A DNA stretch of 20,327 bases, from positions 1 through 20,327 of the IMG/VR virus record IMGVR_UViG_3300043654_000008. The stretch is one strand, 5' to 3'. Positions 3,262 to 14,744 of this stretch are shown here, in pieces. Position numbers and translations under genes: made by a program. Each line of letters starts with the position of its first letter. The first letter of the stretch is position 1. The notes beneath the pieces were generated by a model, which was not told where the DNA came from, did not search any database, and saw nothing but the letters and a program-made list of their open reading frames with translations. Source of the stretch: a virus.

Positions 3262-3570
3262 CTAGAATATAATTAAATCATCTGGTTCACTACCACTTGT
3301 GACATTTGTTAATTTATCATTCGGTTGAAGTTCTTTACTAGGAACTTCTAAAACTTGAGCTATATTAGCTTCACGTTGACCAATTAGATAATTTCCATGA
3401 TTACCATAATCAACACAGTCCCAAGTTTTGCAGAGTAATAAACCTCTCTGCCATTGCATTTCTGAAATAAGAACTCGTGATCCACATCTTGCACAATAAT
3501 GATACTCACTCGTCTTAAACGATCTATGTCCTCTATACGCAACCGATGTTATTATTGGTTGATCAGACAT
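3262..3570 (-). CDS. Zinc-ribbon protein of the late operon
   Basis: A 102-residue protein with a four-cysteine zinc site: CARCG near residues 26-30 and, further on, C and C in the LLLCKTWDC stretch (about residues 47 and 52). Similar short proteins with a CxxCG knuckle, an aromatic stretch and a second Cys pair occur in the head and tail gene clusters of many phages, often without known function. The C-terminus is acidic (SGSEPDDLIIF). The ribosome binding site is weakly placed: AAAAGGAGCC is about 18 bases before the ATG and a nearer AAAGGC is poor. That upstream AAAAGGAGCCTA is complementary to the loop of the terminator just upstream, so translation may be controlled. It is the first gene after that terminator. 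Confidence 0.75.
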   Translation of the reverse strand: MSDQPIITSVAYRGHRSFKTSEYHYCARCGSRVLISEMQWQRGLLLCKTWDCVDYGNHGNYLIGQREANIAQVLEVPSKELQPNDKLTNVTSGSEPDDLIIF

Positions 3571-3586
3571 ATTATATGATTGCCTT

Positions 3587-3598
3587 TAGGCTCCTTTT
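3587..3598 (-). promoter_or_regulatory. AAAAGGAGCCTA leader element of the zinc-ribbon gene
   Basis: On the minus strand this reads AAAAGGAGCCTA and is the only good SD-like sequence before the gene starting at 3570. It is perfectly complementary to 12 bases of the loop of the terminator at 3626-3672, only 45 bases upstream on the same transcript. Read-through RNA could therefore hide this site. Confidence 0.55.
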
Positions 3599-3625
3599 AT
3601 ATTAATTGTTATGGGACAACTGGTA

Positions 3626-3672
3626 TAAAAAGCGGGGAGTAGAAAAGGAGCCTATCCAAAACTACTCCCCTA
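3626..3672 (-). terminator. Intrinsic terminator with a 19-base loop
   Basis: On the minus strand GGGGAGTAG (3670-3662) pairs perfectly with CTACTCCCC (3642-3634), and the stem is followed by GCTTTTTAT. The 9-bp, mostly G:C stem plus T tract is a typical rho-independent terminator for transcripts coming from the capsid genes. The loop, TTTTGGATAGGCTCCTTTT, is unusually long and non-random: it contains the reverse complement of the AAAAGGAGCCTAT leader element found before several late genes. Confidence 0.75.
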
Positions 3673-3730
3673 TCCATCGTTATAACTAACAACATCCCGC
3701 AGGCGTTATTAGTACAACAATGGAATCTCG
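3626..3730 (-). ncRNA. Candidate structured 3'-UTR RNA with anti-SD loop
   Basis: Between the stop codon at 3731 and the terminator T tract there are about 100 bases with no open frame and two stacked hairpins. The first pairs ACTAATAAC (3713-3705) with GTTGTTAGT (3693-3685): nine pairs, one of them G-T. Its 11-base loop, GCCTGCGGGAT, can close further by C-G pairs. The second is the terminator itself, which exposes ATAGGCTCCTTTT. Two hairpins ending in a Rho-independent terminator with a CU-rich loop is the layout of many 3'-UTR-derived small RNAs. That a stable RNA is released is an inference. Confidence 0.4.
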
Positions 3731-4132
3731 TTAAGTACTTTTCCCTTTTACTACGACAATACGTCTTTGTGCAGCGGCAATATGTTTCATGGCGTTATGT
3801 TCTCCAACTGCGAGATCGACAAAGCGACCCTCCCAATTACAAGAACATTTGCCAATAAAATTATAATTAAGACCTTTTTCCACAGTGATAGTGAGCGCAT
3901 GTATATCATGTTCTACATGATAAACTACAGATCCATTTTCAAGATCTTTTGCTTGTTCTTGAACACTTTCTGATACTTTCGCTTGTTCATTAGCTGCGGC
4001 AGTAGCTAATGGTTGTGTATTCTTATTCTCTGTCATTGTTGCAGTAACTTGTTCATTTACTGTATCATTAGTAACTGGTGGAACTGCTGCTTTAGCATCT
4101 GCTTTAGCAAAAGGATCATTAACATTACTCAT
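3731..4132 (-). CDS. Small late protein with C-terminal Cys/His cluster
   Basis: A 133-residue protein. Residues 1-65 are low-complexity and rich in Ala, Thr, Asn, Gln and Glu, so probably disordered. From about residue 70 a compact domain follows, with NFIGKCSCNWEGRF and then GEHNAMKHI. This gives a C-x-C-x(n)-H-x(4)-H arrangement that could bind zinc, and 'CSCxWEG' followed by a His-containing helix recurs in small phage proteins. AAAAAGGAGTC lies just before the ATG at 4132. It follows the major capsid gene, so a capsid-related or assembly role is possible, but function is unknown. The terminator at 3626-3672 closes the transcript behind it. Confidence 0.7.
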   Translation of the reverse strand: MSNVNDPFAKADAKAAVPPVTNDTVNEQVTATMTENKNTQPLATAAANEQAKVSESVQEQAKDLENGSVVYHVEHDIHALTITVEKGLNYNFIGKCSCNWEGRFVDLAVGEHNAMKHIAAAQRRIVVVKGKST

Positions 4133-4155
4133 ATAAAGACTCCTTTTTAAATTAA

Positions 4156-4169
4156 ATAGGCTCCTTTTT
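4156..4169 (-). promoter_or_regulatory. AAAAAGGAGCCTAT spacer element before the Cys/His gene
   Basis: The minus strand reads AAAAAGGAGCCTAT, 24 bases upstream of the ATG at 4132. It is not the functional SD, because a closer AAAAAGGAG is present. The same 14 bases occur before the capsid gene. Thirteen of them are exactly complementary to the terminator loop at 3643-3655. Confidence 0.5.
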
Positions 4170-4189: not shown

Positions 4190-5143
4190 CTACGGCCCAT
4201 TACTGCCCCAAACACCTAACCAATGAGACGCACCAGCAGCAAATCTCATCTTAGATTTCTGTTTCAATGCATCAGTATCAAAATCATCATCATAATCCAT
4301 GTCGGGTTTTTTACGCCACATGAATTTCAATTGATGTTGATCTTTAGCACAAACAGCAAACCATGCTGTATCGCTAGTAAGATAATGGCCTACCATATAT
4401 CCAAGATCTTCACCAAGCAAAGAGTTAATCTCATTGGTCGCTGTTCCTGGTTTACCCGGAGAACCAAGTAATTCCCGAGCTAGAAATCTAAGTGCTGGAG
4501 GAATTACCAATGCTTTAGGTTTCAGAACAATAGGCAAACCAACACCGTCTACGATTCTTTCAAATTGATTTGTCATTGCAATTACAGCAGCAAGAGACAA
4601 ATCAACATCAGTCGCAGGACGATTAGGATAAGTACCCGGAGAACTAATCACACCGGATAAACCCGGTGAATAAGATGTTGCAGTAGGACCGCCAAGCAGA
4701 GGATGTTGATTATTAAAAAGACTAACACCGTCAATAGTTTTAACAGTAGAAAAGCCCAAGTTAAAAATATTCCAAGGGACCATTTCTTCTGTAAATCTTT
4801 GACTACGCGCCAGTGCTTTAGGAATCTGTTTAATAACACCATAAACGTCATCTTCATAAAGCTCAAATGACGCACGCGCTGCAAGAGCATATGTTAGAGG
4901 AATATACCGCAAAGTTCCACCCTGAATAACTTGGGTGTAGTTTACTGGTGTATTCTCAGGTTTATACGGCATTGGACCAGTACCGGCGAATTCAACATCG
5001 TCGGCATAAGCCGTAGTAATAGATTCAACGTTAAACACGGCCGGATACTCAAGATCGCGCTGGTAAGTCTCAAGCCATTGATTAAAAAGCTTGTGAATTC
5101 CCGGTGCCATCAACTGAGCATACTGGCCTCGCACCATTGTCAT
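4190..5143 (-). CDS. Major capsid protein
   Basis: A 317-residue protein that forms the head shell. It resembles the Mu gpT-like branch of HK97-fold major head proteins: an N-terminal LFNQWLETYQRDLEYPAVF segment, a central FSTVKTIDGVSLFNNQHPLL loop and VIPPALRFLARELLGSP near residues 214-230, a phrase typical of that branch. The C-terminus has WFAVCAKDQHQLKFMWRKKP followed by an acidic DMDYDDDFDTD and MRFAAGASHWLGVWG. Length fits the family. The nearer SD is AAAGGAT; a second SD-like copy, AAAAAGGAGCCTAT, is further upstream. Position downstream of portal, scaffold-like and decoration-like genes is what is expected for this protein. The main doubt is the exact subfamily. Confidence 0.88.
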   Translation of the reverse strand: MTMVRGQYAQLMAPGIHKLFNQWLETYQRDLEYPAVFNVESITTAYADDVEFAGTGPMPYKPENTPVNYTQVIQGGTLRYIPLTYALAARASFELYEDDVYGVIKQIPKALARSQRFTEEMVPWNIFNLGFSTVKTIDGVSLFNNQHPLLGGPTATSYSPGLSGVISSPGTYPNRPATDVDLSLAAVIAMTNQFERIVDGVGLPIVLKPKALVIPPALRFLARELLGSPGKPGTATNEINSLLGEDLGYMVGHYLTSDTAWFAVCAKDQHQLKFMWRKKPDMDYDDDFDTDALKQKSKMRFAAGASHWLGVWGSNGP

Positions 5144-5187
5144 ATTAATGATATCCTTTACGAAGATTTAATAACAAAAAATTTAAA

Positions 5188-5201
5188 ATAGGCTCCTTTT
5201 T
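5188..5201 (-). promoter_or_regulatory. AAAAAGGAGCCTAT spacer element before the capsid gene
   Basis: The minus strand reads AAAAAGGAGCCTATTTTAA, about 45 bases upstream of the capsid ATG and directly after the stop of the decoration-like gene. It is too far away to be the working SD. It is identical over 14 bases to the element at 4156-4169 and complementary to the terminator loop at 3643-3655. Confidence 0.5.
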
Positions 5202-5211
5202 GTTATTAAAA

Positions 5212-5899: not shown

Positions 5900-6748
5900 T
5901 TAAACGTTAACATTCCGCCCATCTTCCGGAAACATATCTTTCATTTCCGATTGATTAGGTGCATAAAATTCTACATTCTTACCTTGCTTACGCAAAGCCT
6001 CCAAAACATCGGAACCAATTTCGTTTTGAAGAGTTCTTCGTGCTTGGGCAATAGCTGTAGGCTGCCATCTACCAACCATTTCCAGAGCACGAATTTGATT
6101 CTTCTTGTAAATACCCATCAAGATAAGTACAGGAATTTTCATCAACATTACATCAAACCATTTAATCGTACCATCTTCTGATTTAATCAAATGTTCACTA
6201 ACTTCACCTTTAACATCTTGAGGAGCCGCATTTGAAAAACCGATGGCTTTAAAGAACGCATAGTTTCCGCCCTCGTAATTTTTGTAATTAACCCATCTAA
6301 AACGAGTTCCGGGATCTTTTGGAGATAGTTGTAGCATGGCAGGGATATCAAAAGAATGTGCGTCGATGAAAGGAAGATCGAGAATATTACTCTCGTCAAT
6401 ACTAGCCAGATCAATATTCGTTGCCGGACGAACAGATTGTTTCGTACTAACTGCTCTATTCTGATTTGCGCTAGATTGTGGAGGAGTAATCTGCACATCC
6501 GGCATTAGATGGTCGATATTCTCTTGTGAAGAAAAACCGGCCTTAGCCTTCGTGACTTGAATATCAGGACTGAAAGGATCACGATATTTCGAGCGTGTTT
6601 GTGACTCTGTGCTATTACCAGTCGGAGTCATATCACGAATAATCTTACGAAAATCCGTATCAATTCCTTCATGAACTTCTGCAAGTTTTTCTTTTGCCAG
6701 TTCAGATGCTCTAGTGAGATCGTCTTTCATATCGTCTTTATCCAACAT
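5900..6748 (-). CDS. Virion-associated protein of the capsid cluster
   Basis: A 282-residue protein. Residues 1-110 are charged and probably flexible. From about residue 135 a compact region has LSPKDPGTRFRWVNYKN, ANYAF-like aromatic residues, IKWFDVMLMKIPV and a helical tail (NQIRALEMVGRW). The RFRWVN phrase followed by a DxxLMKIP phrase occurs in a widespread family encoded between scaffold and capsid genes in phages; its function is unknown to me, though it is commonly taken to be particle-associated. The start overlaps the end of the scaffold-like gene by 11 bases, implying coupled translation. AAAGGAGGATTG precedes the ATG at 6748. I would not name a function beyond head assembly or structure. 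Confidence 0.65.
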   Translation of the reverse strand: MLDKDDMKDDLTRASELAKEKLAEVHEGIDTDFRKIIRDMTPTGNSTESQTRSKYRDPFSPDIQVTKAKAGFSSQENIDHLMPDVQITPPQSSANQNRAVSTKQSVRPATNIDLASIDESNILDLPFIDAHSFDIPAMLQLSPKDPGTRFRWVNYKNYEGGNYAFFKAIGFSNAAPQDVKGEVSEHLIKSEDGTIKWFDVMLMKIPVLILMGIYKKNQIRALEMVGRWQPTAIAQARRTLQNEIGSDVLEALRKQGKNVEFYAPNQSEMKDMFPEDGRNVNV

Positions 6749-7460
6749 ATTTCAATCCTCCTTTAGAAGCATTCCATTCTTCAGGAGTCATGCCAAATTT
6801 CTTCGCAGCAATTAATTCTGCATCAGTTAATTCTTCCTTTTTCTCTGTAGTTGTTGGCCGAATTACTGACGTTCCACCGGATTGAACAATGTTATATTTA
6901 CCTTCTTTCTTGTTCGTATCCGTGATAATCTCATCAAGATGACGACCTTTGATAAGATTATAAATATTGTCGATCAATACTTGTGGATTACCTTTTTGAA
7001 CAGGAGTGTATTTGTCCCATTCTTTTTTAATTTCTTCTTCAAAAACTTTAAAATATGGAAGCGAATTCTTTGCCGTATTGTATGCCATCTCCGCAGCAAG
7101 AGATATACTATGAAGTTGAACTCCAGCCACTTGCTGTTGAACCATTTTCTTAATATGTTCCCCAGGATTCTCCATGAACTCTACTGGATCAACGGCATAT
7201 GGATCAACAACAGTTGTTCGTTGTTGGTCATTATTTCCGCCATTATTTCCACCATTGTTATTATCTACACGTTCCACAGGAGTATTAACTTTTTGTGTTA
7301 ATGCCGCAATAGAATCTCTAATCTCCGTCAGTGACGAAGTGGCAGTAGCTAGTTCTTCTTTCGTGACTACATTGCCTAGTTTTGTTTCTAACGCCGCAAT
7401 CTTATCCGGATCAACGCCAAGTTCTTTCAATTGTTCTTTACTCATCTGTCCCCATGCCAT
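6738..7460 (-). CDS. Probable capsid scaffold protein
   Basis: A 240-residue, highly charged, helical protein. Residues 1-65 form a likely coiled coil (MSKEQLKELGVDPDKIAALE, then ITEIRDSIAALTQKV-like heptads). An Asn/Gly-rich linker follows near 68-78. The C-terminus, LTDAELIAAKKFGMTPEEWN (about 212-231), is a phrase typical of the end of phage scaffold and capsid-assembly proteins. Scaffolds guide shell formation and leave or are cleaved before packaging. Position between portal and capsid genes supports this. AAAGGAGATTTATA precedes the ATG at 7460; further upstream is AAAAAAGCGAGCCTATTATT, a variant of the late spacer element. No protease motif is seen in it. Confidence 0.7.
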   Translation of the reverse strand: MAWGQMSKEQLKELGVDPDKIAALETKLGNVVTKEELATATSSLTEIRDSIAALTQKVNTPVERVDNNNGGNNGGNNDQQRTTVVDPYAVDPVEFMENPGEHIKKMVQQQVAGVQLHSISLAAEMAYNTAKNSLPYFKVFEEEIKKEWDKYTPVQKGNPQVLIDNIYNLIKGRHLDEIITDTNKKEGKYNIVQSGGTSVIRPTTTEKKEELTDAELIAAKKFGMTPEEWNASKGGLKYVG

Positions 7461-7492
7461 TATAAATCTCCTTTAATAATAGGCTCGCTTTT

Positions 7493-7909
7493 TTAATTTG
7501 TCTTATTTTCTGCGCCTGTTCCTACTGCTCTCATATTCGATGGATCAGTTTCTTTCGTATAACCTTCGGTTTCGAGATTTGATAATTCAATTTTCATTTT
7601 CTCATAACTTTTTAATTCTTCTGGTAGTTTCAAAAACTCACGAAGTTGAAATATACGTCCGCGAATCGTAGCCGAAGTATCATTACCTTTTGCGTCAATA
7701 TAATTCTCTGTCAATTCACTTAGATATACCCCCAACCAAGTTTCAATATATTTTTGAAAATGTTGCCCAGCTTCCTGTTTAAACCAATTATCCATTAACG
7801 CCCGATGCTTGTACATTTCCAGAAATGGTTTGAACTGACGTTGGTTGTCTAGATTGGCTAACTGGGAACGGAGTTGAAACGCTCTGAGAACTTTCTTTGG
7901 GTCCAGCAT
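7493..7909 (-). CDS. Small helical protein between portal and scaffold
   Basis: A 138-residue, mainly helical, charged protein beginning MLDPKKVLRAFQLRSQLANL with no recognisable motif. It has a strong site, AAAAGGAGCCAATAATAATG, so I keep the first Met even though the gene then overlaps the portal C-terminus by 122 bases in another frame. Later in-frame Mets (codons 32 and 39) lack an SD of this quality. Genes in this position often encode head-tail connector, portal-associated or inner-core proteins, but nothing in the sequence proves that. The C-terminus is polar and ends GTGAENKTN. Confidence 0.6.
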   Translation of the reverse strand: MLDPKKVLRAFQLRSQLANLDNQRQFKPFLEMYKHRALMDNWFKQEAGQHFQKYIETWLGVYLSELTENYIDAKGNDTSATIRGRIFQLREFLKLPEELKSYEKMKIELSNLETEGYTKETDPSNMRAVGTGAENKTN

Positions 7910-9713
7910 TATTATTGGCTCCTTTTAACATCTTTACTAACTCTATCTCTGGCTGTAATCTTGCAATATCATCATGGCCGAAATTACGAAGAATCCTAGA
8001 CATAAGATGACCATTAGCAGCGATAACACCAATGAGATAATTCTTCATCGGCTCACCCATTTGAGGATTCTGTAATCCACTTAAAATTTGCGATATCATA
8101 GCCTGATGACGTTGCATGACTTGAGTAAGCAACATGTCGTTTTGCTTTTCAAGTTCTTTATTAATACTAGCATTAGCCGCACGAATCGGAAGGTCAATAC
8201 GACCTTCTTTGATATTTTGGAGAGCTTTCTTAATACTCTCGGCTTGTGTACCGAAATATTTTAAACGCTCTCCGACGCCAAATTCTGCATACTGTCTAGC
8301 CGCTTTGCGGCCTAGTTTCAGATGTAAGTATCTGAAATCAGTTATGTTAACATTGACACGTCTATTACCAGACTGCATAACCGCGAATGTTCCCATCGCG
8401 GAAAGCTGTCCTTTCTTATTAGTGGTATCTCCGCCTGCCCCTTGCATACCGCCGTCAACACCAGCACGACTACGCGCAAGTTCAATAGTTAACTGTTCTT
8501 CCTGCACTGACGAAGGATACGGAACACCCAACTGATGAATACTAAAATCCTCAGCATTTATTGGTAATGCTGCCATAGGATAGATAGCTAAATTAGCATC
8601 TATCTTATTATTTCTTCCTGTTGTAACAATAGAAGTATTACCCAAAGTCCTATTATCATTACGCTGATTATGTCCAGTGGTAACTTCTTCTTGGTAGTAT
8701 TTAAGCATCTCAGCAAAACCATAACCGAGAAGACCGTCATCAGTATATCCAAGTCTACCAAACTCAAATGGTTCTTCATTATCAGGATAGAAATTGAATA
8801 TCGCATTACACTTTAAGTCTGTCCCTTTATGATAGAGATAAACGATACGCCACTTGGCGTTATTGTGCCAGTACCAGAACCAACATTCGTAAATGTCCCA
8901 CTGAGCCAAGACTTGCGCGTGTTGGGCCTGGATATTTTGATTCTGTTGCTTTTGCTGTTCAGTATTATCCGGCCCATATCCGTCTGGAGAATCAAGAAGT
9001 TTCTTCTTATCCGCTTCATTTAGATCGAATAATTTCAGATAAATTTTTTGTTCTATTTGTTGTTTTGTCAGTCTGTATTTATTATACTTGAAATCTGCTT
9101 TTTCCCAAGTCGGCGCACTTACAGTGGCGCCCCAATCTTCGATTGGTACTTTTTCTGGCCTTGGGCCATCATAACGAGTTTTATCAATAGTTGCTGGTTC
9201 TCCACCTTGAATACCCGGCCCAGTAACAACTTTCTCAATATCTGTCTCCCATGGCTGTTTAATAAGAACACTACCAAATTGACAGATATCATTTGCAGCT
9301 AAACTTTCAACACGATAGAGATCTAATTCATTAGGCTCCATGCCCATCAAATTCATGAAATCTTCTAAACCTTGTCGTTGGTCATCGCCACCTGAATCAG
9401 CAGACCATTCTCCAACAAGATGACTTACCCACAGGGGAAGAATTTCATAAATTGTTCCAATAATACGTGCTTTAAGAATATCAACATTCTCAGCAATTAA
9501 TTGAATAACAACATTGGAACAATTCGGCCACGGCCAATCTCTAGAATCTTGTTCAGGTAGTCCTTTATACAAACGACGCCACTCTGGAACTTTAACCGTA
9601 TGAAAACTATCATACGCATCAAGCTGTGCTTGAAGATTCTCTTTGACAAAGAGATGAAGATGTTTATTAACATCTGCTCCAAAATCTGCGCTGACTGGTG
9701 TTGTTACGGGCAT
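7788..9713 (-). CDS. Portal protein
   Basis: A 641-residue protein that should form the dodecameric DNA channel at one head vertex. The N-terminus has FHTVKVPEWRRLYKGLPEQ, then DWPWPNCSNVVIQLIAENVD and ILKARI, a combination typical of large P22-like portals in phages with roomy capsids. The clip and wing part includes WDIYECWFWYWHNNAKW, YNIPDNEEP-like strands and LLGYGFAEMLKYYQEEVTTG. A long helix with KNIKEGRIDLPIRAANASIN follows, and the last 40 residues are polar and Ser/Gln-rich. That tail is overlapped by the next gene. It lies downstream of terL and the small membrane genes, in standard order. The start at 9713 has only a weak site (AAAAGAGATTCTAAAA). Confidence 0.85.
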   Translation of the reverse strand: MPVTTPVSADFGADVNKHLHLFVKENLQAQLDAYDSFHTVKVPEWRRLYKGLPEQDSRDWPWPNCSNVVIQLIAENVDILKARIIGTIYEILPLWVSHLVGEWSADSGGDDQRQGLEDFMNLMGMEPNELDLYRVESLAANDICQFGSVLIKQPWETDIEKVVTGPGIQGGEPATIDKTRYDGPRPEKVPIEDWGATVSAPTWEKADFKYNKYRLTKQQIEQKIYLKLFDLNEADKKKLLDSPDGYGPDNTEQQKQQNQNIQAQHAQVLAQWDIYECWFWYWHNNAKWRIVYLYHKGTDLKCNAIFNFYPDNEEPFEFGRLGYTDDGLLGYGFAEMLKYYQEEVTTGHNQRNDNRTLGNTSIVTTGRNNKIDANLAIYPMAALPINAEDFSIHQLGVPYPSSVQEEQLTIELARSRAGVDGGMQGAGGDTTNKKGQLSAMGTFAVMQSGNRRVNVNITDFRYLHLKLGRKAARQYAEFGVGERLKYFGTQAESIKKALQNIKEGRIDLPIRAANASINKELEKQNDMLLTQVMQRHQAMISQILSGLQNPQMGEPMKNYLIGVIAANGHLMSRILRNFGHDDIARLQPEIELVKMLKGANNNAGPKESSQSVSTPFPVSQSRQPTSVQTISGNVQASGVNG

Positions 9714-14460: not shown

Positions 14461-14554
14461 CAACCTTTACGATTTTACTTGGCGTCTCGGAGGGAGAAAA
14501 GTCGTATCCCTATAACTCATTTCGTTTGAACCACTTACCATTTGTATTTCCGCG

Positions 14555-14696
14555 TGATACACACACGCAAGCGAAGGCGGCAAAGGGGGGTATCTTATTT
14601 TTTTTTTTTTTTTTTTTTTTCATTAGTAAAGATCTTATCCTTGTTTTGGCCCTTTTCACTGATCCCGACGGTGCCGTTAGTCGAGTGTGTGTATCA
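14555..14696. repeat. Dyad with TGATACACACAC arms around a 23-T tract
   Basis: TGATACACACAC (14555-14566) and GTGTGTGTATCA (14685-14696) are a perfect 12-bp inverted repeat. Inside, CGGCA and TGCCG, and AAAGGG and CCCTTT, extend the symmetry toward the centre, where T(23) lies at 14598-14620. A long A/T homopolymer at the centre of a dyad is not expected for a coding or simple terminator region. Confidence 0.6.
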
Positions 14697-14744
14697 GACG
14701 AGAATATAAATTCCATGTCGTTGAAATGACTGGACTTACACCCC

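Follow-up and report, generated by a model that had tools for sequence, protein, structure and literature searches.

The window, i.e. the whole analysed stretch of DNA, is a 20.3-kb virus record (W) in which the order of genes (terminase, portal-like connector, small genes, head protein) is of the tailed-phage type. The major head protein (MCP) gene is located on the minus strand at 4190-5143 (PHROG 371 major head protein, E 2e-11). Its relatives were collected in MCP searches that gave 24 loci and then 80; loci are labeled below with L-numbers. The sole MCP relative in the GTDB genome collection (L110, 51% identity) lies on a Sulfuriferula MAG contig, which may be a hint to the host or a contamination. 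The early region of the window contains a long A/T homopolymer run with overlapping K-rich and F-rich frames (14510-14716).

On the minus (late) strand the gene 3731-4132 is followed by a terminator, GGGGAGTAG-TTTTGGATAGGCTCCTTTT-CTACTCCCC-GCTTTTTATA, which comprises a hairpin with arms GGGGAGTAG and CTACTCCCC and a 19-nt loop (3634-3670, minus strand) and the tail GCTTTTTATA (3624-3633, minus strand). The loop carries the anti-leader element ATAGGCTCCTTTT (3643-3655, minus strand; reverse complement AAAAGGAGCCTAT on the plus strand), the predicted seed. Upstream in the same 3' UTR a long hairpin is found on the minus strand at about 3673-3724, and the relatives have one of a different sequence at the same place. 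Both hairpins are parts of a predicted two-hairpin 3'-UTR RNA of 104 nt that begins just past the stop codon of gene 3731-4132 and runs to the U tract (3624-3727, minus strand), with an MFE of -48.1 kcal/mol and z = -8.4 (0/200 shuffles); its position relative to the MCP gene is conserved in the relatives. In many lineages UCC is predicted to pair with GGA or GGG of the loop, forming a mini-stem that leaves the co-varying bases apical, from which we infer masking of the generic anti-SD part, with the seed formed by the part that is specific to the phage. No Rfam family matched above the gathering score in the window, L003, L008 or L013.

The sequence AAAAGGAGCCTAT recurs in the leaders of several late genes, with two exact copies on the minus strand (4156-4168 and 5188-5200) and one of 12/13 (3586-3598); when up to three mismatches were allowed, 18 matches were found in the window vs 6.5 +/- 2.8 expected, and none of 100 shuffles gave as many. 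The element of the MCP leader (5188-5200, minus strand) is complementary to the loop over 13/13 positions and lies 49 nt from the ATG (duplex -21.3 kcal/mol, 0/200 shuffled loops), that of gene 3731-4132 (4156-4168, minus strand) pairs over 13/13 positions 28 nt from the ATG, with a proximal SD at 4135-4147 (-23.5 kcal/mol, 0/200), and that of the zinc-ribbon gene 3262-3570 (3587-3598, minus strand), the cis site, pairs over 12/12 positions 20 nt from the ATG (-18.7 kcal/mol, 0/200). Weaker copies on the minus strand precede gene 6738-7460 (AAAGCGAGCCTAT, 7479-7491; two mismatches, unusable as SD; -17.6 kcal/mol, 0/200), gene 7493-7909 (AAAAGGAGCCAAT, 7914-7926, at the same time the SD; one mismatch; -16.4 kcal/mol, 3/200) and gene 2305-2652 (TAAAGGAGCCTTT, 2681-2693; two mismatches, 33 nt from the ATG; -18.4 kcal/mol, 1/200). 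In the leaders of MCP, 3731-4132 and 2305-2652 the element, placed 28-49 nt from the ATG, is not a working SD and a second SD-like site is present near the start.

The six target leaders, with duplexes of about -16 to -23.5 kcal/mol, are separated from three non-target late leaders of the window (-9.2 to -13.2 kcal/mol), and the separation persists after subtraction of opening costs (-6.7 to -15.7 vs -0.3 to -3.9 kcal/mol, topological strain excluded). Dimers of the loop RNA with the leaders showed little gain in RNAcofold, because the loop-leader pairing is a pseudoknot and thus beyond the model of that program. In a small hand count for the window, L003 and L008 the loop was matched by 10/15 late leaders vs 1/9 early-gene leaders (Fisher P = 0.013); GGAGCC is also a frequent SD of early genes. 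The MCP leader element itself lies within a predicted A/T hairpin (5160-5210, TAATAACAAAAA..TTTTTGTTATTA) with GGAGCCTAT in its loop, so that loop-loop kissing with the terminator loop would be allowed.

A preliminary description of the locus, made without database searches, had proposed that the terminator loop (3655-3643) is the antisense of a leader element at 5188-5200, 4156-4168 and 3587-3598, and this held in full. Its view of the element as a leader site held as well, with the correction that before MCP, 3731-4132 and 2305-2652 it does not work as SD, and the targets go beyond the three it named, to the weaker copies at 7914-7926, 7479-7491 and 2681-2693. The second hairpin, which it had placed at 3685-3713, was confirmed but is larger. 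The fold and duplex energies that it had suggested for checking are those given above, z = -8.4 for the two-hairpin RNA and -16.4 to -23.5 kcal/mol for the six leader duplexes.

The hairpin is conserved in related phages. About 25 related contigs, with 60-97% identity in MCP, have a terminator within 2 kb after MCP and a long hairpin upstream of it; the stem varies between phages and the anti-leader stays immediately 5' of the 3' arm. Among the closest relatives, every contig with sufficient sequence has the hairpin at the equivalent position, its loop being WAGGCTCCTTTT and its stem differing, and more distant relatives combine this architecture with other loops. In L019, L057, L087, L092 and L096 the hairpin comes immediately after MCP, and in the group of the window it is found one or two genes further on. 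Stem differences are compensatory in 25 lineages, the first seven positions each showing four to five pair types; all pairs in this count are standard by construction and only their diversity is informative. Nearly all lineages that were folded are also predicted to have the second long hairpin immediately upstream, with unrelated sequences. CTCC is present in the terminator loop of 15/16 terminator-like hairpins within 2 kb after MCP vs 0/35 elsewhere (25 contigs), and in the six window-like genomes with forward and reverse counts a single antisense copy was found on the late strand, in the hairpin. Several family members lack a recognisable anti-leader terminator, and the cultured MCP relatives Roseobacter CRP-902, Caulobacter GB2A, Alcaligenes QDWS535, Pelagibacter HTVC027P, DSL-LC04 and 023Pt_psg01 have ordinary terminators without an anti-leader loop. 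In L113 (Planktothrix phage Pag-Yong1) the gap after MCP (about 7900-8005) contains a terminator-like hairpin with CCGTCTCC at the border of loop and 3' arm, complementary over 8 nt to the leader of the next gene (GGAGACGG); this could be a coincidence or an instance of the design in a cultured phage.

Loop and leaders were found to co-vary. As leaders we took GGAG sites lying upstream of ORF starts, and scoring was confined to the bases after GGAG, therefore SD function cannot generate the result. Matches of at least 4 nt beyond GGAG to the loop of the same genome were found in 32 leaders vs 5.2 expected from the loops of other genomes (28 genomes, 0/20,000 permutations); with one genome for each of the 14 loop types, 16 leaders matched vs 0.85 expected (0/100,000 permutations). 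The loci are IMG/VR contigs with common ancestry, so the permutation falls short of a full phylogenetic test. The extension past the SD core (CCTA, CCTT, CCA, CCG, CTTC, ATGG) changes jointly with the leaders, giving the loop/leader types TAGG/CCTA, AAGG/CCTT, TGG/CCA, GTGG/CCAC, CGG/CCG, GAAG/CTTC and CCATCTCC/GGAGATGGC. For example, the loop CGGCTCC of L016 is accompanied by the leader GGAGCCG, GGAAGCTCCTTT of L057 by AAGGAGCTTCC, GTGGCTCC of L015 by GGAGCCAC and GGCCATCTCC of L019-L021 by GGAGATGGC. The loops of L065 and L103 match no leader, and their assignment is possibly false. When all hairpin loops were compared with the leaders without constraint, matches of at least 9 nt showed no excess (96 vs 94 in the same-sense control), because short matches are common and the signal resides in the 11-14 nt matches of MCP-side terminators.

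Elements that no longer serve as SDs retain the rest of the match (7479-7491 of the window, L002 and L012). The zinc-ribbon leaders of L002, L012 and L014 have the SD core mutated (GCGAG, GAGAG and GTGAG, respectively) with the flanking GAGCCT part kept, so the element seems to be retained there for a role other than ribosome binding.

It has thus been shown that the hairpins are conserved, that the complementarity is conserved and that loop and leaders co-vary. The earlier claim that the match exceeds a plain anti-SD match held, the covariation being in the bases after GGAG. Loss of the loop-leader complementarity in relatives, named in advance as an outcome that would refute the proposal, was not seen; the relatives keep it. 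The proposal that a 3'-UTR element tunes its own late operon is supported as far as the conserved and co-varying complementarity goes; production and release of the RNA and its effect on translation remain inferred.

Since the loop and the sites before head genes change together in evolution, it is probable that a small RNA encoded by the phage adjusts how its own capsid-building genes are translated. The reading we favor, and consider likely, is that of a 3'-UTR-derived two-hairpin antisense RNA acting on the leaders of its own late operon, with its making, release, pairing in vivo and effect on translation being inferences. Past the capsid gene, the late transcript would have as its 3' end an RNA of about 100 nt with two hairpins, and the loop of the terminator hairpin would be the antisense seed for the short element shared by the leaders of several late (head) genes of the phage that encodes it. 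Once released, the RNA may pair in trans with the leaders that carry this element, or else bind the polycistronic mRNA. Pairing of sRNAs at the SD is known to repress initiation (PMC9438474), and ribosome binding would be blocked at genes 7493-7909 and 3262-3570, in which the element coincides with the SD or overlaps it. For elements 28-49 nt upstream of the start and accompanied by a second SD the effect may concern a standby site, leader folding or mRNA stability, and its sign is open. The putative outcome is negative feedback or stoichiometry control of the head genes once the capsid transcript is complete, repression being inferred. A 13-bp duplex in a closed loop of 19 nt would be sterically strained, and it is possible that just 7-10 bp form. 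The position of the MCP element of the window outside the usual ribosome footprint is a point against this reading. For a bolder version, namely an undescribed class of phage antisense RNAs in which a terminator-loop seed co-evolves with operator-like elements in head-gene leaders and phage-specific pairing determines, at the RNA level, either the timing or the stoichiometry of capsid assembly, we see as much reason to accept it as to withhold judgement.

Among the alternatives the most serious is a cis lock, in which the terminator loop of read-through RNA forms a pseudoknot with the zinc-ribbon SD and the match to other leaders is incidental. The zinc-ribbon leader indeed lies 24-60 nt past the hairpin in most genomes of the group and co-varies with it (window, L003, L006, L007, L013, L015, L044 and L050), with a match spanning 13-14 nt in L013. 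However, L009 has kept the loop without a zinc-ribbon site, the cis site of L008 has a wrong base and three trans leaders fit the loop better, and in L019 and L057 the hairpin is placed immediately after MCP with the matching leaders elsewhere, only a trans leader matching in L019. A cis-only lock is insufficient, because trans leaders often match better and some phages have no cis site; we consider it unlikely. The cis lock of the downstream SD put forward in the preliminary description therefore held in part, being possible in many genomes and insufficient in view of L008, L009 and L019. A cis effect on read-through RNA remains possible, and trans or operon-wide action explains more. As a separate observation, the anti-leader and the zinc-ribbon leader of L013 (12387-12444) could form a 15-bp cis hairpin as an alternative to the terminator.

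The remaining explanations find less support. A phage protein might bind the 13-bp sequence as DNA in both orientations, in a stoperator-like manner, the hairpin copy being one more site; a shared DNA-binding protein would also predict covariation of all copies within a genome, and asymmetric 13-bp stoperators are present in L5-like phages (PMC3203893). Against it, the hairpin copy is always antisense, single on the late strand and placed between covarying arms just 5' of the 3' arm with its T tract, the leader copies overlap SDs, and a DNA site needs no stem, which makes this reading very improbable. We give as little credence to a mimic of the 16S anti-SD that would bind mRNAs or ribosomal factors generally, with the leader match reduced to SD/anti-SD pairing: the loop core CUCCUUUU is similar to the 16S 3' end, but the co-varying bases lie beyond GGAG and do not pair with 16S, UCC is masked in the mini-stem in most lineages with the co-varying bases in the apical loop, and plain-SD leaders pair poorly. 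A neutral repeat, with leaders descended from one another and the loop copy a chance inversion, is the least likely of all; the leaders within a genome are clearly related, but the complementarity persists over 60-97% MCP identity despite changed stems and motifs (0/100,000 permutations).

If the antisense reading is true, a family of tailed phages (uncultured soil phages) controls the expression of its capsid gene by an RNA feedback loop residing in a transcription terminator, at least 10 seed/target specificities exist in nature, and phage late operons join the short list of cases of 3'-UTR autoregulation. Such phages would be a natural supply of orthogonal antisense pairs and would provide a testable model for unexplained start-site repeats in other phages, e.g. 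those of cluster K.

Phage-encoded RNA regulators have been reviewed (PMC12197685), among them lambda aQ, StxS, AsxR and c4; none of these four derives from the 3' UTR of a late operon and is directed against the head genes of its own phage. The Start-Associated Sequences (SAS, GGGATAGGAGCCC) of cluster K mycobacteriophages are 13-bp repeats of unknown role with nearly all copies in one orientation (PMC3203893). They resemble the window element in being asymmetric, 13 bp long and SD-containing, in recurring before genes in a single orientation and in a conservation that extends past the SD, but they differ in sequence, precede early/non-structural genes and lie 3-9 nt from the starts. No match between AAAAGGAGCCTAT and GGGATAGGAGCCC was found with up to two mismatches, AGGAGCC alone being shared, and placement a few nt from non-structural gene starts is not met by the window copies, which precede late head genes, mostly at a distance of 20-49 nt. 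A one-orientation start element whose lone antisense copy lies within a hairpin loop was seen in the group of the window and in Anaya/Adephagia and is not conserved across cluster K. In Anaya (L120, 31871) and Adephagia (L121, 30683) the sole antisense SAS copy of the region examined lies in the loop of a strong hairpin (AGGCGTCGACCAG..CTGGTCGACGTCT) beside a GC-rich hairpin. This loop is kept in Validus and LilPharaoh, changed in Amgine, Unicorn and Bryler, and absent in Yuna, Scarlett and K3 phages. The hairpin is present in K1 and some others and lost or changed elsewhere; its loop is not conserved over the cluster and hence offers a lead only and is no evidence for a shared system.

RNAIII of S. 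aureus (terminator hairpin H14) and the RsaE C-rich-motif sRNAs (PMC3053349) also expose an anti-SD in a hairpin loop, including a terminator loop, for pairing with the SD regions of several mRNAs; there is no sequence relation, and their C-rich motif is general with many host targets, whereas the window element is phage-specific and co-varying. OppZ and CarZ of Vibrio cholerae have been shown experimentally to be 3'-UTR-derived autoregulatory sRNAs, processed by RNase E and Hfq-dependent (PMC7398697). The likeness lies in an RNA that stems from the 3'-terminal part of an operon, carries a Rho-independent terminator and is complementary to the translation initiation regions of that operon. Both features are found here: the predicted RNA of the window, encoded in the 3' UTR of an operon of protein-coding genes, has an intrinsic terminator as its end, and its complementarity to translation initiation regions of its own operon is kept in the relatives. 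The putative feedback by an RNA belonging to the completed late transcript is a further resemblance. Unlike the bacterial OppZ and CarZ, the window system belongs to a phage late operon, has its seed inside the terminator loop and rests on sequence evidence only; it is also distinguished by one element common to several leaders of one operon and by a seed and targets that co-vary between phages.
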